Shown in pieces: positions 57,231 to 64,000 of a DNA stretch of 64,000 bases; the first letter of the stretch is position 1, and each line of letters opens with the position of its first letter. The notes beneath the pieces were generated by a model. It searched no databases and was not told where the DNA came from. It worked only from the letters and a program-made list of their open reading frames with translations. The position numbers and the translations under genes were made by a program. Source of the DNA: Geobacter sp. DSM 9736 (GTDB lineage Bacteria > Desulfobacterota > Desulfuromonadia > Geobacterales > Geobacteraceae); NCBI RefSeq assembly GCF_900187405.1, contig NZ_LT896716.1, positions 2,976,753-3,040,752 of the forward strand, written 5' to 3'.

Positions 57231-57263
57231 GGGGGCGAGGTGCATGCGGCCACTGGAGGTACC

Positions 57264-57968
57264 GTGACAGGAAGTGAACTCGTCAACATGATTGAGCGGG
57301 TCGAGCCTGGAGTTGTCCTGCTCGATGCCGACTATTCCATTTCCCACATCAACCGGATGTTCATGCTGATGTTCAGCGCGATTCCCCGTGAGCGTCTCTT
57401 CGAAAGCGACATTCTCGGGTTTCACCGAGAGGAGAGCCGTGCGAAAGTTGCAGGAAAGCTTCGCCTTGCTGAAGAAGCCCAGCGTCAGATTCCCCTTTCC
57501 CTCAAGATAATCAACCAGGACGGACAGGATCGTTACCTGCTGATCAAGATAACTCCTCTAGTAGATCGAAACGAAGCCGAAAACCGGCTCTGCGCGCTCT
57601 TCTACGATATAACGCCATTCATTTCTGCAGAGCGCAGACTTACGAGAATTCCGGTTACTGCCGGAGGAGAAATAAACCTCCTCAGCCCCGAGGAGATCGT
57701 ATACCTGAAAGCCGACAACATCTATTCCCGGGTATACACTGAAAACGGCGAGTATCACTGTGACTTCTCTCTGGGGGAGATCACAAAGCGCTTGCCTCCC
57801 GAACAGTTTTACCGCATACATCGCAGCTACGTCGTAAGCATCCCCAAGATCAGAAAGGTGCGGCGTGAGACGTCGGAATGCTCAGTTAGCATCCGGGAGA
57901 ATGACGTACGGCTTCCAATCAGCCGGGAGAAGCTGCAGCACTTCCTCGTGGAGCTCGGCCTGAAGTAA
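57264..57968 (+). CDS. PAS-LytTR transcriptional regulator, possible CO sensor (RcoM-like)
   Basis: About 234 aa. An N-terminal PAS domain (SELVNMIERVEPGVVLLDAD...) is joined to a C-terminal LytTR DNA-binding domain (GGEINLLSPEEIVYLKADNI, FYRIHRSYVVSIPKIRKVRR, LPISREKLQHFL). This is the architecture of RcoM, a haem-containing CO sensor, and cooS begins 133 bases downstream. A His in ILGFHREESRAKV is in the region of the RcoM proximal haem ligand, but I see no Met in the PAS segment where the distal ligand is expected. GTG 57264 follows GGAGGTACC; GTG 57240 is an alternative. A redox, CO or other PAS ligand is possible. Confidence 0.8.
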   Translation: MTGSELVNMIERVEPGVVLLDADYSISHINRMFMLMFSAIPRERLFESDILGFHREESRAKVAGKLRLAEEAQRQIPLSLKIINQDGQDRYLLIKITPLVDRNEAENRLCALFYDITPFISAERRLTRIPVTAGGEINLLSPEEIVYLKADNIYSRVYTENGEYHCDFSLGEITKRLPPEQFYRIHRSYVVSIPKIRKVRRETSECSVSIRENDVRLPISREKLQHFLVELGLK

Positions 57969-58002
57969 TAACCCAGCTTCCTTCATTCCTCTATTCCTGC
58001 CA

Positions 58003-58051
58003 TTTACAAGCCCCATCCGCAGTTCACAAGACAGCTCTTACCCTGACAGCT
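58003..58051 (+). promoter_or_regulatory. Direct repeats upstream of cooS (candidate LytTR site)
   Basis: TTTACAAG (58003-58010) and TTCACAAG (58023-58030) repeat with 20-base spacing. GACAGCT occurs at 58030-58036 and 58045-58051. LytTR proteins bind direct repeats about two helical turns apart. No good -35 box is visible, as expected for an activated promoter. Confidence 0.45.
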
Positions 58052-58101
58052 TCAAACATATACGATCACCTCAGAAAAGCACCATCTTGAGGAGGCCGTA
58101 A

Positions 58102-60024
58102 ATGTGCGACGGATGCGGTAAAAATGATTATAGAAGTGCTGATCCGGCTGCGGTTGAAATGCTGGAGATAGCCGACCGGAAAGGGTACGAAACGATATGG
58201 AGCCGCTTTGAGAAGCAGCAGCCCCAGTGCGGCTACGGACAACTTGGTACCTGCTGCCGCATCTGCGTTATGGGCCCCTGCCGGATTGATCCTTTCGGCG
58301 AGGGGCCGACACAGGGAGTGTGCGGCGCCACAGCAGACACCATTGTTTCCCGGAATCTTGCAAGGATGGCGGCGGTGGGTTCCTCGTCACATTCGGACCA
58401 TGGCCGCAAAGCCGCGCTTCTTCTGAAGGCAGTGGCGACGGGGGTGAATACCGATTATCGCATCACCGATTCGGAAAAGCTCCTGGCCGTGGCGCGAAAA
58501 CTCGGAATCCAGACATCCGGGCGCGGATACTCCGAAATCGCCGGAGACGTGGCCGACGCCGCCATCAATTGCTTCGGGAAGCAGGACGAGGAACCGATTC
58601 TCTTCCTTGAGAAGTTCATGCCCCGCAAGCGCCTGCAGCATCTGAAGAACCTGGAGAAAACGCTAAGGGAGACTACCGGTGCGGTAACCGGGTTGCTCCC
58701 TCGCGGTATCGACCGTGAGGCCGTCGATATACTCCACCGCACCCACTTCGGCTGTGACGCCGATCCACTTTCGCTTATCGCCCAGACAGTCCGTTGCTCC
58801 CTTTCCGACGGCTGGGGGGGATCGCTCATTGCGACCTCTGTCCAGGATATTCTGCTAGGTACCCCATCGGTGAAGGCGGTAAAGGCTAACCTCGGCGTGC
58901 TGGAGGAGGAGAGCGTCAACGTGGTGGTGCACGGTCACGAGCCGATTCTGTCGGCGAAAATAGTGGAGATGGCGCTGGCTCCCGATATGTTGCAGGCGGC
59001 CGAGGCGGTCGGGGCCCAGCGGGTTAACGTAGTGGGCCTCTGCTGCACGGGGAACGAGGTGCTTCTGCGCCAGGGAGTGGGAATGGCGGGGAACGAGGGG
59101 CATAGCGAGCTTGCGATAATGACGGGCGCGGTGGACGCCATGGTGGTGGACGTCCAATGTATTTATCCCGCCCTTGCCGACCTGGCGACATGCTTCCACA
59201 CAAATCTCATCACCACAAGTGAGCAGGCGAAGATACCCGGGGCTCGACACATCCAGTTCAACGAGCAGGAGGCCGATTCCATAGCAACGACAATAGTGCA
59301 GGAGGCCATCGCGGCCTTCCCTCGCCGCAATAGGGCTCGGGTCCACATTCCACAGCATTCCTCGACGGCACTAGTCGGCTTTACGGTAGAGGGTGTGCTC
59401 GCCGCACTAGGCGGCTCACTCCAGCCCCTGATCGACCTGATCCTGAAAGGAACCATAAAGGGTATTGCGGGGGTTGTGGGTTGCAATAATGTAAAGGTGC
59501 GGCAGGACTCTTTTCATCGTGCGCTTACCTCGGAGCTGATAGAGCGCGACATCCTCGTCATCGGCACCGGCTGCTGGGGGATCGCCGCCGCAAAGGCTGG
59601 TCTGATGGACCCGTCCGCGGGGAAGATGGCTGGACCTGGCCTTCGAGCTCTGTGCGAACAACTGGGCATCCCCCCTGTCCTCCACATGGGGTCGTGCGTC
59701 GATTGCTCCCGAATGCTCCTTTTGGCCGGGGCAATTGCCGATCAGCTCGATCTCGACATCTCACAGCTGCCGCTGGTCGGATCGGCACCGGAATGGACAA
59801 CGGAGAAGGCTGTCGCCATAGGTACCTATTTCGTCGGAAGCGGCATCCCCGTTCACCTCTGGCCGCTTCCGCCAATCCTCGGCGGTCCGCAGGTCACCCG
59901 AATACTCACACAGGATGCCAAGGAGATATTTGGCGGGTATTTCTTCGTTGAGGAAGACCCGGTTGCCACCGCCGACACGATGGAGACCATCATTATGGAG
60001 CGGCGAGCGGCTCTCGGCCTCTAG
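58102..60024 (+). CDS. cooS: Anaerobic nickel-iron carbon monoxide dehydrogenase catalytic subunit
   Basis: 640 aa. Cluster ligands are all visible: D-cluster Cys43 and Cys51, B-cluster Cys52, Cys55, Cys60 and Cys74 (CCRICVMGPC...GVCG). C-cluster candidates are the His of VVVHGHEP, then the cysteines of GLCCTGNE, DVQCIYPA, VVGCNN, GTGCWG and GSCVDC. The dimeric enzyme interconverts CO and CO2. The neighbours (cooC, ferredoxin, FAD oxidoreductase) indicate CO oxidation linked to NAD(P)+ rather than acetyl-CoA synthase, whose genes are absent. GAGGAGG is five bases before the ATG. Expression is probably controlled by the PAS-LytTR protein upstream. Confidence 0.97.
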   Translation: MCDGCGKNDYRSADPAAVEMLEIADRKGYETIWSRFEKQQPQCGYGQLGTCCRICVMGPCRIDPFGEGPTQGVCGATADTIVSRNLARMAAVGSSSHSDHGRKAALLLKAVATGVNTDYRITDSEKLLAVARKLGIQTSGRGYSEIAGDVADAAINCFGKQDEEPILFLEKFMPRKRLQHLKNLEKTLRETTGAVTGLLPRGIDREAVDILHRTHFGCDADPLSLIAQTVRCSLSDGWGGSLIATSVQDILLGTPSVKAVKANLGVLEEESVNVVVHGHEPILSAKIVEMALAPDMLQAAEAVGAQRVNVVGLCCTGNEVLLRQGVGMAGNEGHSELAIMTGAVDAMVVDVQCIYPALADLATCFHTNLITTSEQAKIPGARHIQFNEQEADSIATTIVQEAIAAFPRRNRARVHIPQHSSTALVGFTVEGVLAALGGSLQPLIDLILKGTIKGIAGVVGCNNVKVRQDSFHRALTSELIERDILVIGTGCWGIAAAKAGLMDPSAGKMAGPGLRALCEQLGIPPVLHMGSCVDCSRMLLLAGAIADQLDLDISQLPLVGSAPEWTTEKAVAIGTYFVGSGIPVHLWPLPPILGGPQVTRILTQDAKEIFGGYFFVEEDPVATADTMETIIMERRAALGL

Positions 60025-60045
60025 CTTAAAAAGGAGCGAAGCAAG

Positions 60046-60924
60046 ATGTGCAAACCTAACAAAGGCTTCAGATTAGTCATAACAGGAAAGGGGGGGGTAG
60101 GAAAAACAACTCTTACCGCATGCCTCGGCACCGCACTGGCTCGCGACGGCATCAACGTCCTCGCCGTCGACGAGGACCCTCAGATGAACCTCCCTTTTGC
60201 CCTGGGTCTCGGTGTTGAAAAAGGCTCCAAGATAGTGCCACTCAACATGAACGGGGATTACATCGAGGAGAAGACCGGCATCCGCCCAGGCAAGAGCGGC
60301 TGGGGCGCAATGTTCAAGCTGAACCCGAACGTGGCGGATGTGGTGGAGCGGTACGGGATGAGATGCCGGGAGAACCTGAGCCTGCTCGTGATGGGAACCG
60401 TGAAGCAGGCAGGGGGCGGTTGCCTCTGTGCCGAGAATGTCCTCCTTGATTCGACGATCCGTCACCTTGCGCTGCGAAGAAACGAGGCGATTCTTCTCGA
60501 TACACAGGCGGGGGTGGAGCATTTCGGCCGGGCGCTGGCAAAGGGCTTTCACCACTGCCTCGTGGTTTCCGACATTTCCTTCAACTCCCTCACTGTCGCT
60601 TGCCATTCGGCAGCCCTCGCTCGGGAGACGGGGATCGAGAGGGTGTCGCTCGTTGTGAACCGGGTGAAGGAGGGGGGGGAGGAAAAGCTTGCACGCTTCG
60701 AAAGGGAAACGGGGCGTGAGCTGGCAGAGCAGTTCGATGCGATCTTCATGCTTCCACTGGAATCCCGCTTCGAGGAGCTGGAGCCTGACGTGACGCGGGT
60801 CATGGAGATGGATGGCAGCGATTACGCCGCTGGGGTTGCCGCTCTGGCCTGGAGGCTCAATCACGGGGAATGCGGCTGTGGCCCGGCCCACCACCATCCC
60901 CATGAAACGGAGAACCGCCGATGA
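60046..60924 (+). CDS. cooC: CO dehydrogenase nickel-insertion ATPase CooC
   Basis: 292 aa MinD/NifH-like ATPase. The P-loop is GKGGVGKTT (residues about 14-22). A CxC pair in GGGCLCAENVLL matches the dimer-interface nickel site of CooC. LDTQAGVEHFGRALAKGF is the switch II region. The C-terminus carries an unusual Cys/His cluster (ECGCGPAHHHPHE), a likely extra metal site. It loads nickel into the CooS C-cluster with ATP. It follows cooS by 21 bases and overlaps the ferredoxin gene by four (ATGA). Confidence 0.94.
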   Translation: MCKPNKGFRLVITGKGGVGKTTLTACLGTALARDGINVLAVDEDPQMNLPFALGLGVEKGSKIVPLNMNGDYIEEKTGIRPGKSGWGAMFKLNPNVADVVERYGMRCRENLSLLVMGTVKQAGGGCLCAENVLLDSTIRHLALRRNEAILLDTQAGVEHFGRALAKGFHHCLVVSDISFNSLTVACHSAALARETGIERVSLVVNRVKEGGEEKLARFERETGRELAEQFDAIFMLPLESRFEELEPDVTRVMEMDGSDYAAGVAALAWRLNHGECGCGPAHHHPHETENRR

Positions 60925-61517
60925 AGCGGATATTGGTCGATTACAAGAAGTGTCTCGCCTGCAAGGGTTGCGAAACAGCCTGCGCCGTCGAGCACCACCC
61001 GTCCCGCTCCTTCTTCGGAGCGCTTGGAGACAGGAAGACCGAGATCAACGTTCGGGTGCTCGGGGTCGAGCAGGAGGCTTTCCCCCTTTCCTGCCGCCAT
61101 TGCGATCCAGCCGATTGTCTCAATGCCTGTCCTTCGGGAGCTCTCTGCCGCGACCCGGAGACCGGAGCCGTTGTCCTGAACCCCGATCATTGCAAAGCTT
61201 GCGCGATGTGCGCAATGGTCTGTCCTTTTGATGCCATAGCATTCAAGGAAACCCATCGCTCCCGCTACGGAAGAGATGTGGCTCATAAATGCGACCTTTG
61301 CAGCAGCCGGGTGAAGAGGGGGGCTGATCCGGCCTGCGTGGAGGCCTGCCACTCGGGCGCACTGATTTTCGGTGAGCACTCTGTGGTACGTGCGGGTAGG
61401 GCTGTCAAGGGTTTGCGCAGCTATCTCCTCGGAGAGGGAGAGATGCTGCAACCCCTGATGGAGCTGTTTCGTGAGCTGCGCCGCAAGGAGTTCGCGCGGC
61501 GACGGAAAGGTGAATGA
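60921..61517 (+). CDS. cooF: CooF-like ferredoxin with several [4Fe-4S] clusters
   Basis: 198 aa. Four cysteine groups can hold four [4Fe-4S] clusters: CLACKGCETAC, CRHCDPADCLNAC, CKACAMCAMVC and a C-terminal pair (CDLCSSR and CVEAC). It resembles CooF and HycB-type electron-transfer subunits. It should take electrons from the CooS D/B clusters and pass them to the FAD oxidoreductase encoded next. Genes on both sides overlap by a few bases, so translation is coupled. A basic C-terminal tail (RELRRKEFARRRK) ends the protein. Confidence 0.92.
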   Translation: MKRILVDYKKCLACKGCETACAVEHHPSRSFFGALGDRKTEINVRVLGVEQEAFPLSCRHCDPADCLNACPSGALCRDPETGAVVLNPDHCKACAMCAMVCPFDAIAFKETHRSRYGRDVAHKCDLCSSRVKRGADPACVEACHSGALIFGEHSVVRAGRAVKGLRSYLLGEGEMLQPLMELFRELRRKEFARRRKGE

Positions 61518-62758
61518 TGAAAGTCGTTACGGTCGGCACCGGAATGGCGGCTGCGGAGTTCGTACAACGTCTGAGGTTTGAGGGCTTTTCGGGCGAAATA
61601 ACCATGATGGGGGATGAAGATTTTCCCCCGTATTCTCCATGCGTGATCCCTTTTTACCTGGCCGGGGAGCCCATGGAGACGGTCTACTGGAAGGGGAGCG
61701 ACTTTTACGAACGCTACCGGGTGACAGCGCGGCTCGGCGACCCTGTGGTGGAGGTCGATCCGGAGCGCCATCTGGTAAGGAGCGCTGGCGGGCATTGTGA
61801 GACTTATGACAGGCTCTTCTTCGCTACCGGTGCAAGGAGCTGGTATCCTCGTCCTGAATGGCTCGATACACATGGCGTCTTTGGGTTCAAGACGCTGAGC
61901 GACATGGTTGCCATTGACCACTACATTCGCGAGAACAGCGTCACGGAGGTAGTGGTGTTCGGCGGCGGCTTCATCGGCGTCGATGCTGCCCTGGCGCTCC
62001 GGCACCGCGGCCTCAGGGTTGTGCTCGTGCATCGCAACACGCGGGTCCTGTCTCAGATGACCGACGAGGAGGGGGGGCTGTTTGCTACAGCCAGGCTCCG
62101 TGAGAAAACAGGGATCGACATCCGGCTGAAAACGATGGTGGAAGGCATCGTCTCCTGCAACGGAGCACTCAAAGCGGTAACCTTATCCACTGGCGAGAGC
62201 ATGGAGACCTCTCTCCTGATCCTGGCCATAGGTGTGTCGCCTAACTCGGAGCCGTTGAGCGGCAACGACAAGGGAATTGCAGGCAACGCTCAAATGATGG
62301 CTGACCCGTCCATATATGCCGCCGGTGATGTAGCGGTCACTACCCATGCCGTCAGCGGTGCCACCGGAATCTACGCCACCTACCCGAACGCCATGCTCCA
62401 GGCGCGTACCGCCGCCCGGCACCTGGTCCACGGCGAAGGCTGTTACCTCGGTTCCATCAACACTAATATATTGAGGAAGCATATCGAGTTTCCCATCGTT
62501 TCGGCCGGGAGCTTCAATGGAGAAGCGGTCACATGGACGAGGGGGGACATCTGGCGCAGGGTCTACCTGACAGACGGGATGATCAACGGCTATCTCGTCA
62601 TCGGCGATATGCGTATGTCCGGATACCTTTATCAGCTCTATGTAGCGCGCAAACGTGTCGACCGCACGATACGACAGGTGCTTTTCAGTCCGACCCACGA
62701 CGGCTATTACCGGGAGATGCTCGGAATCGAACCATTAAGCCGACATGATCAGGCCTGA
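61517..62758 (+). CDS. FAD-dependent NAD(P)H oxidoreductase of the CODH operon
   Basis: 413 aa, pyridine nucleotide-disulfide oxidoreductase class I. The FAD motif is VVTVGTGMAAAEFVQ, the NAD(P) motif VVVFGGGFIGVDAALALR, and AAGDVAVTTHAV is the second FAD contact. Cys42 (PPYSPCVIPFY) falls at the redox-active position of NADH oxidase/peroxidase and CoA-disulfide reductase enzymes. In cooS-cooF-FNOR clusters such proteins move CO-derived electrons to NAD(P)+. AAAGG is six bases before ATG 61517 and three before ATG 61514. It ends the cooSCF unit, 79 bases before an acetate kinase homologue. Confidence 0.88.
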   Translation: MKVVTVGTGMAAAEFVQRLRFEGFSGEITMMGDEDFPPYSPCVIPFYLAGEPMETVYWKGSDFYERYRVTARLGDPVVEVDPERHLVRSAGGHCETYDRLFFATGARSWYPRPEWLDTHGVFGFKTLSDMVAIDHYIRENSVTEVVVFGGGFIGVDAALALRHRGLRVVLVHRNTRVLSQMTDEEGGLFATARLREKTGIDIRLKTMVEGIVSCNGALKAVTLSTGESMETSLLILAIGVSPNSEPLSGNDKGIAGNAQMMADPSIYAAGDVAVTTHAVSGATGIYATYPNAMLQARTAARHLVHGEGCYLGSINTNILRKHIEFPIVSAGSFNGEAVTWTRGDIWRRVYLTDGMINGYLVIGDMRMSGYLYQLYVARKRVDRTIRQVLFSPTHDGYYREMLGIEPLSRHDQA

Positions 62759-62837
62759 AACCTTTCCATTTTCCTCCGGCTGTGATACTAAGTGTTCATG
62801 AAATAATGCTACTATTCAGAGTCGGTTCTCTCTGCCC

Positions 62838-64000
62838 ATGAACGTGCTTATCCTTAATTGCTGGACCTCTTCCATTGCGTTCCACCTCCTCGATGGAAAG
62901 AAAAAAATCCGACTCGCAGACGGCACAGTCGAGCGGGTGACACTTGACGGAGGTTCCATCTCTCTGCGTCGCCCGGGGAGGGAAGTGCATGAAAGGAAGC
63001 TGGAATGCCCGACCCACGCCTCCGCGGTCGAAGCGGTCCTTGCTCTCCTTGCCGATCCGGACGCCAAACTACTGCAGAATCCACACGAAATCAGCGTCGT
63101 TGCCCACCGGGTGGTCCACGGTGGGGAAAAATTTCACTTCGGCTGCGTAATAGATCAGGAGGTCCTGGGCTCGCTGCGGAAGCTGCGGGCGCTGGCTCCC
63201 CTTCACGCCCCCTCCAACATCGCGGGGATAGAGGCCGCGATGAAACTGCTGCCGGGGGTTCCTCATCTGGCATTATTCGATACTGCTTTTCACCATACGA
63301 TGCCTCCCGAGGCATACCTCTACCCGCTTCCTTATGACTGGTACGAACAAAGGGGCATACGCCGGTACGGCTTCCACGGGCATGCTCACCAGCATGCCAC
63401 TATGCGGGCTGCTTCCATTCTCGGAAAGCCGCTGGACTACTGCAACCTCATAACCATTGCCATAGGCCGTGGAATTTCCGTCTGCGCCGTCAGGAATGGA
63501 AGGTCCATCGACACCAGCATGGGGCTCACTCCCCTCGAAGGTGTGGTGATGGATACCCGCTGCGGTGACCTCGACCCCGGGCTCACGACATTCATGATGG
63601 ATCGCCTGAACTTGTCGCCTCCCGAGATCCACCGTGTTCTCAACGAGAAAAGCGGCCTCTATGGAATAGCCGGGAGTGGCAGCAGGATCGAGCTGATTGA
63701 GAGGGCCGGGCAGGGTGAGTACCGTGCGCAGTTGGCACTCGATATCCAGTGTTATCGCTTGAAGAAACAGATCGGCGCCTATATCGCGGCAATCGGCAAA
63801 ACCGATGCGGTTGTATTTACCGCCGAAGAGGAGCTGACCGACTGGCGGCTGCGTGAGCAGGTCCTGAACGGGCTTGAGCTGATGGGCATAATAATCGACT
63901 CTGAAAAAGCTCGCCTTGCGCTTCCGCGAAAGGAGGAGGTGATTTCCGCCTCCGGGTCGCCTGTTACAGTGATCAACGTTCCGACACACCTGGAGACGGT
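62838..64000 (+). CDS. Divergent acetate kinase homologue with degraded nucleotide site (partial, runs off the window)
   Basis: The open frame runs from ATG 62838 to the window end (387 codons, no stop). It aligns along its length with acetate kinase, without gaps up to residue 247: Asn7, Arg91 (AHRVVHGG), Asp148 (LFDTAFHH), His180 (YGFHGHAH) and Arg241 (DTRCGDLDP) sit at their canonical numbers. The nucleotide side is altered: HLGNG becomes AIGRG (208 Ala, 211 Arg), the SxDxRD loop reads GSRIEL, the GIGEN phosphate loop reads EEELTD, and PTNEE becomes PTHLE. It probably binds acetate or acetyl phosphate but may not phosphorylate. The ribosome site is weak, and a stop at 62799 excludes earlier starts. 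It may be the last gene of the CODH operon. Confidence 0.85.
   Translation, partial: MNVLILNCWTSSIAFHLLDGKKKIRLADGTVERVTLDGGSISLRRPGREVHERKLECPTHASAVEAVLALLADPDAKLLQNPHEISVVAHRVVHGGEKFHFGCVIDQEVLGSLRKLRALAPLHAPSNIAGIEAAMKLLPGVPHLALFDTAFHHTMPPEAYLYPLPYDWYEQRGIRRYGFHGHAHQHATMRAASILGKPLDYCNLITIAIGRGISVCAVRNGRSIDTSMGLTPLEGVVMDTRCGDLDPGLTTFMMDRLNLSPPEIHRVLNEKSGLYGIAGSGSRIELIERAGQGEYRAQLALDIQCYRLKKQIGAYIAAIGKTDAVVFTAEEELTDWRLREQVLNGLELMGIIIDSEKARLALPRKEEVISASGSPVTVINVPTHLET

Follow-up and report, generated by a model that had tools for sequence, protein, structure and literature searches.

An acetate kinase paralogue of Geobacter sp. DSM 9736 keeps its acetate pocket and has replaced its nucleotide-binding loops

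The window analysed here, a stretch of 64,000 nucleotides of the Geobacter sp. DSM 9736 genome, ends within a gene for a divergent acetate kinase paralogue, AckX, in which none of the nine listed acetate-site residues has changed and three of the 13 listed nucleotide residues remain. We put at roughly one in two the probability that AckX is a non-catalytic, ligand-binding protein of the acetate kinase fold that no longer uses MgATP, as its residue pattern suggests. What is new here is the connection of AckX with a clade of paralogues that are present as second copies and changed in the same loops.

Results

AckX is an intact second acetate kinase homologue

The AckX gene (62838-64000, + strand) is open from its ATG at 62838 to the window edge, over 387 codons, and runs 12 codons past it; in the genome the stop codon comes after 399 codons (L003:7591-8790), giving a whole protein of 399 residues. 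A preliminary description had called the frame intact over 387 codons and the gene not decayed, and the open frame is borne out. By homology AckX belongs to the acetate kinase family, scoring above the curated cut-offs along its whole length in profile searches (401 bits against a cut-off of 293 for TIGR00016, 393 against 22 for PF00871), and solved acetate kinases align along its length, the best being 2iir (E 1.7e-106). The fold model, built from a six-row alignment, has a mean pLDDT of 77, with values below 50 at 172-175, 229-248 and 269-275, the second of which includes Asp239 and Arg241; a fold search with this model returned acetate kinases as top matches, 2iir first. The sole other PF00871 match in the genome is a canonical ackA (P0002) that adjoins pta (named from its sequence), so that the second, canonical ackA-pta pair for which a search had been proposed does exist.

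AckX is 50% identical to the genome's own canonical AckA, and the highest identity of any relative is 53%. A search of 277 genomes of the class, with a limit of E 1e-133 and at most six candidates scored per genome in many of them, gave seven genomes with a match at that limit, its own genome being one of these, and no other match reaching E 1e-136. On these E-values and the top identity of 53%, no close AckX orthologue was found. Peptide patterns run against GTDB r220 contigs returned seven loci, which are 35-42% identical and were rejected as close orthologues; six of them, once aligned, retain G9, G331 and E384, although one, L039, has H208M, N211S and G239S. A plasmid-borne source was likewise rejected, the best identity being 42% among the best 10 of 383 records.

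The changes in AckX described below are substitutions scattered along the gene, together with one alignment gap at position 283, in a frame that stays open. Its GC3 falls inside the range of ten other genes from this genome, and its codon-adaptation value of 0.716, with eight of the compared genes as the reference, is the second lowest of eleven (range 0.673-0.780). Because the substitutions are spread through an open frame and codon use lies within the range of other genes, a sequencing error as the source of the changes, a possibility raised at the outset, is unlikely and was rejected.

The acetate pocket is kept and the nucleotide loops are replaced

Residues were read from an alignment of 100 rows, comprising AckX, the genome's own AckA, 96 sequences from related and other genomes and the enzymes of M. 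thermophila and T. maritima, and are numbered as in M. thermophila acetate kinase. Before alignment we dropped L041, which has only half the length, and duplicates of the genome's own genes, and left out weak partial-length matches of 29-34% identity, which are likely butyrate kinases; six further places, one paralogue and five fragments nearest to canonical rows, are in no alignment. AckX retains N7, S12, R91, V93, L122, H123, D148, F179, H180, G212, P232 and R241, and it carries G9W, S10T, K14A, N124A, H208A, N211R, G239D, a gap at D283, R285I, G331E, G333E and E384L.

All features that follow lie on the + strand and were placed by alignment and by codon re-reading. The residues that we take to be those of acetate and the transition state are all present: Arg91 (63108-63110), His123 (63204-63206, with N124A adjacent), Asp148 (63279-63281), His180 (63375-63377, in an HGTSH motif that now reads HGHAH) and Arg241 (63558-63560). 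On the nucleotide side, the PHOSPHATE1 loop (62856-62879) reads NCWTSSIA where the own AckA has NCGSSSVK, with G9W, S10T and K14A and with N7 and S12 kept, and the PHOSPHATE2 loop (63459-63479) reads AIGRGIS for HIGNGVS, with H208A and N211R. Position 239 of LOOP3 (63552-63554) has gone from Gly to Asp, which may pair with Arg211, judging from the sequence. LOOP4 (63672-63698) reads GSGSRIELI and has lost the D283/R285 motif, the ADENOSINE loop (63819-63845) reads TAEEELTDW for TAGVGEMGW (G331E, G333E), and the C-terminal motif (63981-63998) reads PTHLET for PTDEEL, with Leu in place of E384, the conserved glutamate that binds magnesium. Among canonical rows G331, N211 and G239 are retained in 67, 64 and 66 of 67, respectively, and H208, K14 and E384, which we assume to have roles in the functional ATP-dependent enzyme, in 66, 67 and 67; AckX has none of the six.

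The preliminary description had placed Asn7, Arg91, Asp148, His180 and Arg241 at canonical positions, and these five stand there, together with His123. It had also named the His to Ala change at 208, the Asn to Arg change at 211 and the replaced SxDxRD and GIGEN loops; these entries are right, and the list was incomplete, lacking G9W, S10T, K14A, N124A, G239D and E384L. Its statement that the acetate/phosphoryl side is kept holds for the acetate pocket and is too generous for the phosphoryl part, because K14, H208, N211 and E384, all gone from AckX, also serve phosphoryl transfer.

AckX resembles canonical AckA (EC 2.7.2.1; PF00871, TIGR00016) in whole-length homology, predicted fold and acetate-pocket residues, and differs from it in the PHOSPHATE1, PHOSPHATE2, LOOP3, LOOP4 and ADENOSINE loops and at E384. 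For the M. thermophila enzyme, the accessible text of PMC4390882 gives the roles of N211, G239, G331, D283 and R285; N211 contacts the beta-phosphate of ATP and hydrogen-bonds G239, and changing N211, G239 or G331 lowers activity 6- to 200-fold. In AckX all three are changed, to residues other than the variants given in that text and among further changes. The PPi-dependent acetate kinase of Entamoeba histolytica shares with AckX the acetate kinase fold and a changed ADENOSINE motif. PMC5517563 gives two signatures of the PPi enzyme, a PHOSPHATE2 loop that is longer and contains a second Gly, and an Asp next to position 331. AckX has neither: its AIGRGIS loop is of canonical length and its residue 330 is Ala, and a PPi-kinase signature was rejected. 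Unlike the Entamoeba enzyme, AckX has lost phosphate-side residues too.

Loss that is selective for the nucleotide side, as first proposed, also emerges by count. We counted over the 121 columns that do not vary across 57 canonical rows (the two solved enzymes plus 55 of the group, 10 of the 67 canonical rows being left out of this choice), with residue sets drawn up after viewing the alignment. AckX is changed at 0/23 of these columns in the acetate/phosphoryl pocket, 15/27 in the nucleotide loops and 14/71 elsewhere (Fisher p 8e-6 for loops vs. pocket, 0.001 for loops vs. elsewhere and 0.019 for pocket vs. elsewhere). Constraint on AckX is graded by column conservation, with 76, 56, 47, 28 and 13% of residues kept from canonical-invariant to most variable columns.

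AckX is a member or sister of a clade of second-copy paralogues

Picking rows by W, R or L at position 9 gives a paralogue group of 33 of the 100 rows, AckX included. With the motif columns excluded from the trees (position 9 and likewise positions 211 and 239), the 33 rows lie on one side of a branch with an SH-aLRT of 99, in a tree from which 22/67 canonical rows had been thinned out. A second tree, built with 32 of the 33 (L100 omitted) and 23 canonical rows, 44/67 being left out, gives bootstrap/SH-aLRT values of 95/98. The AckX branch is long (1.0-1.17 changes per column) and its nearest neighbours are unsure; in an AU test, a tree with 31 other paralogues as a clade that excludes AckX was not rejected (p 0.308). 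On the sequence trees, AckX is a member of, or sister to, the second-copy paralogue clade. The paralogue is carried by 32/57 other related genomes and 15/24 of their genera (hand count); the 32 other paralogue rows come from 31 genomes, genome G022 adding one further copy.

The trio W9, R211 and D239 of AckX recurs in L059 and L069. Lys or Arg at 211 occurs in 18/33 paralogue rows and Asp or Glu at 239 in 16/33, each in 0/67 canonical rows, and the first accompanies the second in 12/18 rows, against 4/15 of the others (p 0.037, uncorrected for kinship). In the 32 remaining paralogues, changed cells make up 35.5% of the invariant ones in the nucleotide loops, compared with 5.3% for the acetate pocket and 13% outside both; since the rows are related, p-values over them are not independent evidence. 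None of the 32 has H208A or E384L, both H208 and E384 being retained throughout, so AckX is altered further than its relatives; with this retention, and with G331 present in 26/33 paralogue rows, some catalysis may persist in the clade taken together. Conservation of the altered motifs in relatives, which the preliminary description had put forward as a check, is found in that the same loops are changed in 32/57 genomes; the residues themselves vary by lineage, with H208A and E384L in 0/32.

A reverse of the AckX pattern is seen at L100:3971-5197, a paralogue that has lost H123, D148 (to Glu) and R241, yet keeps H208 and E384. V93 is Ala in 13/33 paralogues, a change that presumably widens the acyl pocket, and L122 is Gln in 5/33; the two changes hint that some members of the clade bind another acyl ligand. 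AckX keeps V93 and L122. Outside the clade, an acetate kinase homologue from a Firmicutes MAG (L039:10001-11167) carries H208M, N211S and G239S, a separate case of altered phosphate loops.

The paralogue family is probably the AckA-2 of Geobacter (GSU3448 / Gmet_0149), judging from sequence and locus position. According to the accessible text of PMC2700814, this is a second acetate kinase homologue besides AckA-1, of unknown role, whose divergence predates the Geobacteraceae ancestor, and the acetate kinase activity supplied by GSU3448 is insufficient for growth. We place GSU3448 in the clade on a shared peptide and on a locus number near the complex I genes, which matches the nuo neighbourhood of some paralogues. 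A peptide reported for AckA-2 in the available part of PMC4121341 implies GIRLDRERN, present in 3/33 paralogue rows and 0/67 canonical rows, and the complex I genes are GSU3429-3445 in the accessible text of PMC5585712. In the main text of the same genome-wide mutant paper acetate kinase is unnamed, and among the literature matches listed no title or abstract opening describes loss of the ATP site in GSU3448. A 2026 paper, in its accessible part, includes GSU3448 with ackA and pta in a possible, though downregulated, propionate activation route (PMC13274346). AckX differs from AckA-2 of Geobacter in lying beside coo genes and in having lost H208 and E384.

Selection on the paralogues was estimated by a simple counting method (own script) for 24 pairs in three genera. 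The paralogues have a dN/dS of 0.042-0.183 and the canonical copies of the same genomes 0.006-0.052, with the paralogue higher in 24/24 pairs; on these values the paralogues in the three genera are under purifying but weaker selection. For AckX itself, the signs of selection are indirect, namely its open frame, codon use within range (at the low end) and graded column constraint.

The genomic neighbourhood varies between lineages

Upstream of AckX, on the same strand, lies an rcoM-cooS-cooC-cooF-FNOR cluster (57240-62758, +) that ends 79 bp before the gene and whose genes are named by order and by likeness to the similar cluster of G. sulfurreducens in the accessible text of PMC4703632. Within these 79 bp (62759-62837) no Shine-Dalgarno sequence is evident by eye, a scan gave no sigma-70-like promoter near AckX, and the + strand of L003:7300-9100 lacks any terminator-like site. 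FNOR has a match at E 1e-110 in 11/57 other relatives, with cooC and cooF adjoining it in 11/11; an AckA relative lies within 1.5 kb downstream at 0/11 of these loci, and coo genes (E 1e-20) occur around 0/32 other paralogue loci, where we scanned flanks of ~4 kb on each side as far as the contig allows (1.5 kb for L006). Among the loci compared, only AckX lies beside coo genes. An association with CO metabolism, from the start described as positional, is unsupported by these counts, and orthologues with altered motifs beside cooS, which were to be looked for, are absent from the 1.5 kb downstream of the 11 other FNOR loci.

Gene order is available for 31 of the 32 other paralogue loci, L086 not having been called as a gene, and some neighbours are named by likeness to a scanned copy. 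Glutamate synthase, Bcp or nuoA are neighbours at six loci taken together, MarR-type regulators lie in the stretch of five, and an acetyl-CoA hydrolase/transferase gene is next upstream at 3/31 (gaps of 246 bp in L006, 181 bp in L072 and 58 bp in L079). No neighbour is common to all 31 loci, and because neighbours vary between lineages no partner stands out. A Bcp-type peroxiredoxin gene adjoins the paralogue in L053, L065, L080 and L092 (PF00578 in the L065 copy); the fold search with AckX contains 9a4d, titled a model of ACKA-BCP by crosslinking, and our guess is that the two Bcp proteins are of one family. A remnant at the Bcp-nuo place, which is where the paralogue sits in some relatives, was considered and rejected: this genome has Bcp and nuoA there, and over 13 kb the AckA matches are no better than E 0.019. 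In L042 (L042:2709-5263), whose paralogue is the nearest to AckX by path, a multihaem cytochrome gene (PF13447) overlaps the paralogue start by 4 bp at its end.

Discussion

With the loops for the ATP phosphates and adenosine replaced, and E384 with them, AckX would no longer use MgATP. An Arg211-Asp239 ion pair would sit where the beta-phosphate of ATP is otherwise held; since N211 of the M. thermophila enzyme contacts this phosphate and hydrogen-bonds G239 (accessible text of PMC4390882), such a pair would block nucleotide binding. Trp9 and the acidic stretch 330-332 would fill the remaining cleft, while the rest of the pocket would still bind acetate, acetyl phosphate or phosphate. AckX would then act via binding; its most plausible role would be that of a regulatory partner, perhaps one that forms mixed dimers with canonical AckA, or else that of a ligand-responsive regulator of acetate metabolism. 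The functions suggested in the preliminary description, a sensor of acetyl phosphate or acetate, a phosphatase or a regulator, are candidates at most. We count for this the residue comparison, the activity lost by the M. thermophila variants at N211, G239 and G331, the canonical ackA beside pta, the clade, the dN/dS values, the GSU3448 data and the acetyl-CoA hydrolase/transferase gene upstream in 3/31 loci. Counted against it are the long branch, the lack of any match better than the canonical copies in 277 class genomes at the E 1e-133 limit, the absence of an evident ribosome-binding site, the variable neighbours, H208 and E384 in 32/32 other paralogues, G331 in 26/33 rows, the propionate route in the accessible part of PMC13274346 and the pLDDT below 50 at 229-248. 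A broader version, which we hold only tentatively and at less than even odds, is a family of pseudo-acetate kinases in Geobacter relatives, in which an ion pair and bulky residues would shut the ATP cleft and the proteins would be receptors for acetate or acetyl phosphate that adjust acetate use, perhaps in mixed dimers with the working enzyme, AckX being fully non-catalytic.

The long branch of AckX, the lack of a close orthologue in 277 class genomes and of an evident Shine-Dalgarno sequence, the loss of H123, D148 and R241 in clade member L100, the higher paralogue dN/dS in 24/24 pairs and the 14/71 changed invariant columns outside the site could all reflect a paralogue under relaxed constraint, useful until recently, that is heading for decay and lost its ATP site first. 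We consider this a serious rival but less likely, given the open frame, codon use inside the range of other genes, the pocket columns changed at 0/23 vs. 14/71 elsewhere (p 0.019) and a constraint that continues to follow column conservation. Catalysis with a different phosphoryl donor or acceptor, by a PPi-type kinase, a kinase of some other acyl phosphate or a hydrolase of acetyl phosphate working through R91, H180, R241 and D148, would fit the complete set of pocket residues, H208 and E384 in the 32 other aligned paralogues and Ala at 93 in 13/33. For AckX this too is a serious rival, though less likely than the main reading: the enzyme would have to work without H208, N211, K14 and E384, V93 and L122 are unchanged, and both PPi-enzyme signatures from the accessible part of PMC5517563 are absent. 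Least credible by far is a role within the coo operon, with AckX linked to CO as, for instance, a sensor that couples CO oxidation to acetate; position speaks for it, AckX following FNOR by 79 bp on the same strand with no terminator-like + strand site in L003:7300-9100. Against it, neither the 11 further FNOR loci, each of which has cooC and cooF (no AckA relative within 1.5 kb downstream), nor the 32 other paralogue loci (no coo genes at E 1e-20 in the scanned flanks) repeat the arrangement.

Acetate is a central fuel of Geobacter, and acetyl phosphate is a common bacterial signal. A paralogue that is widespread and under selection, and whose ATP site is disturbed, is treated in print, in the accessible parts of PMC2700814 and PMC13274346, as an acetate kinase or a possible propionate kinase. 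If it is instead a ligand-binding regulator, as we favour for AckX, annotations and pathway assignments would be wrong for many species, and the paralogue would offer a specific candidate sensor of acetate or acetyl phosphate.
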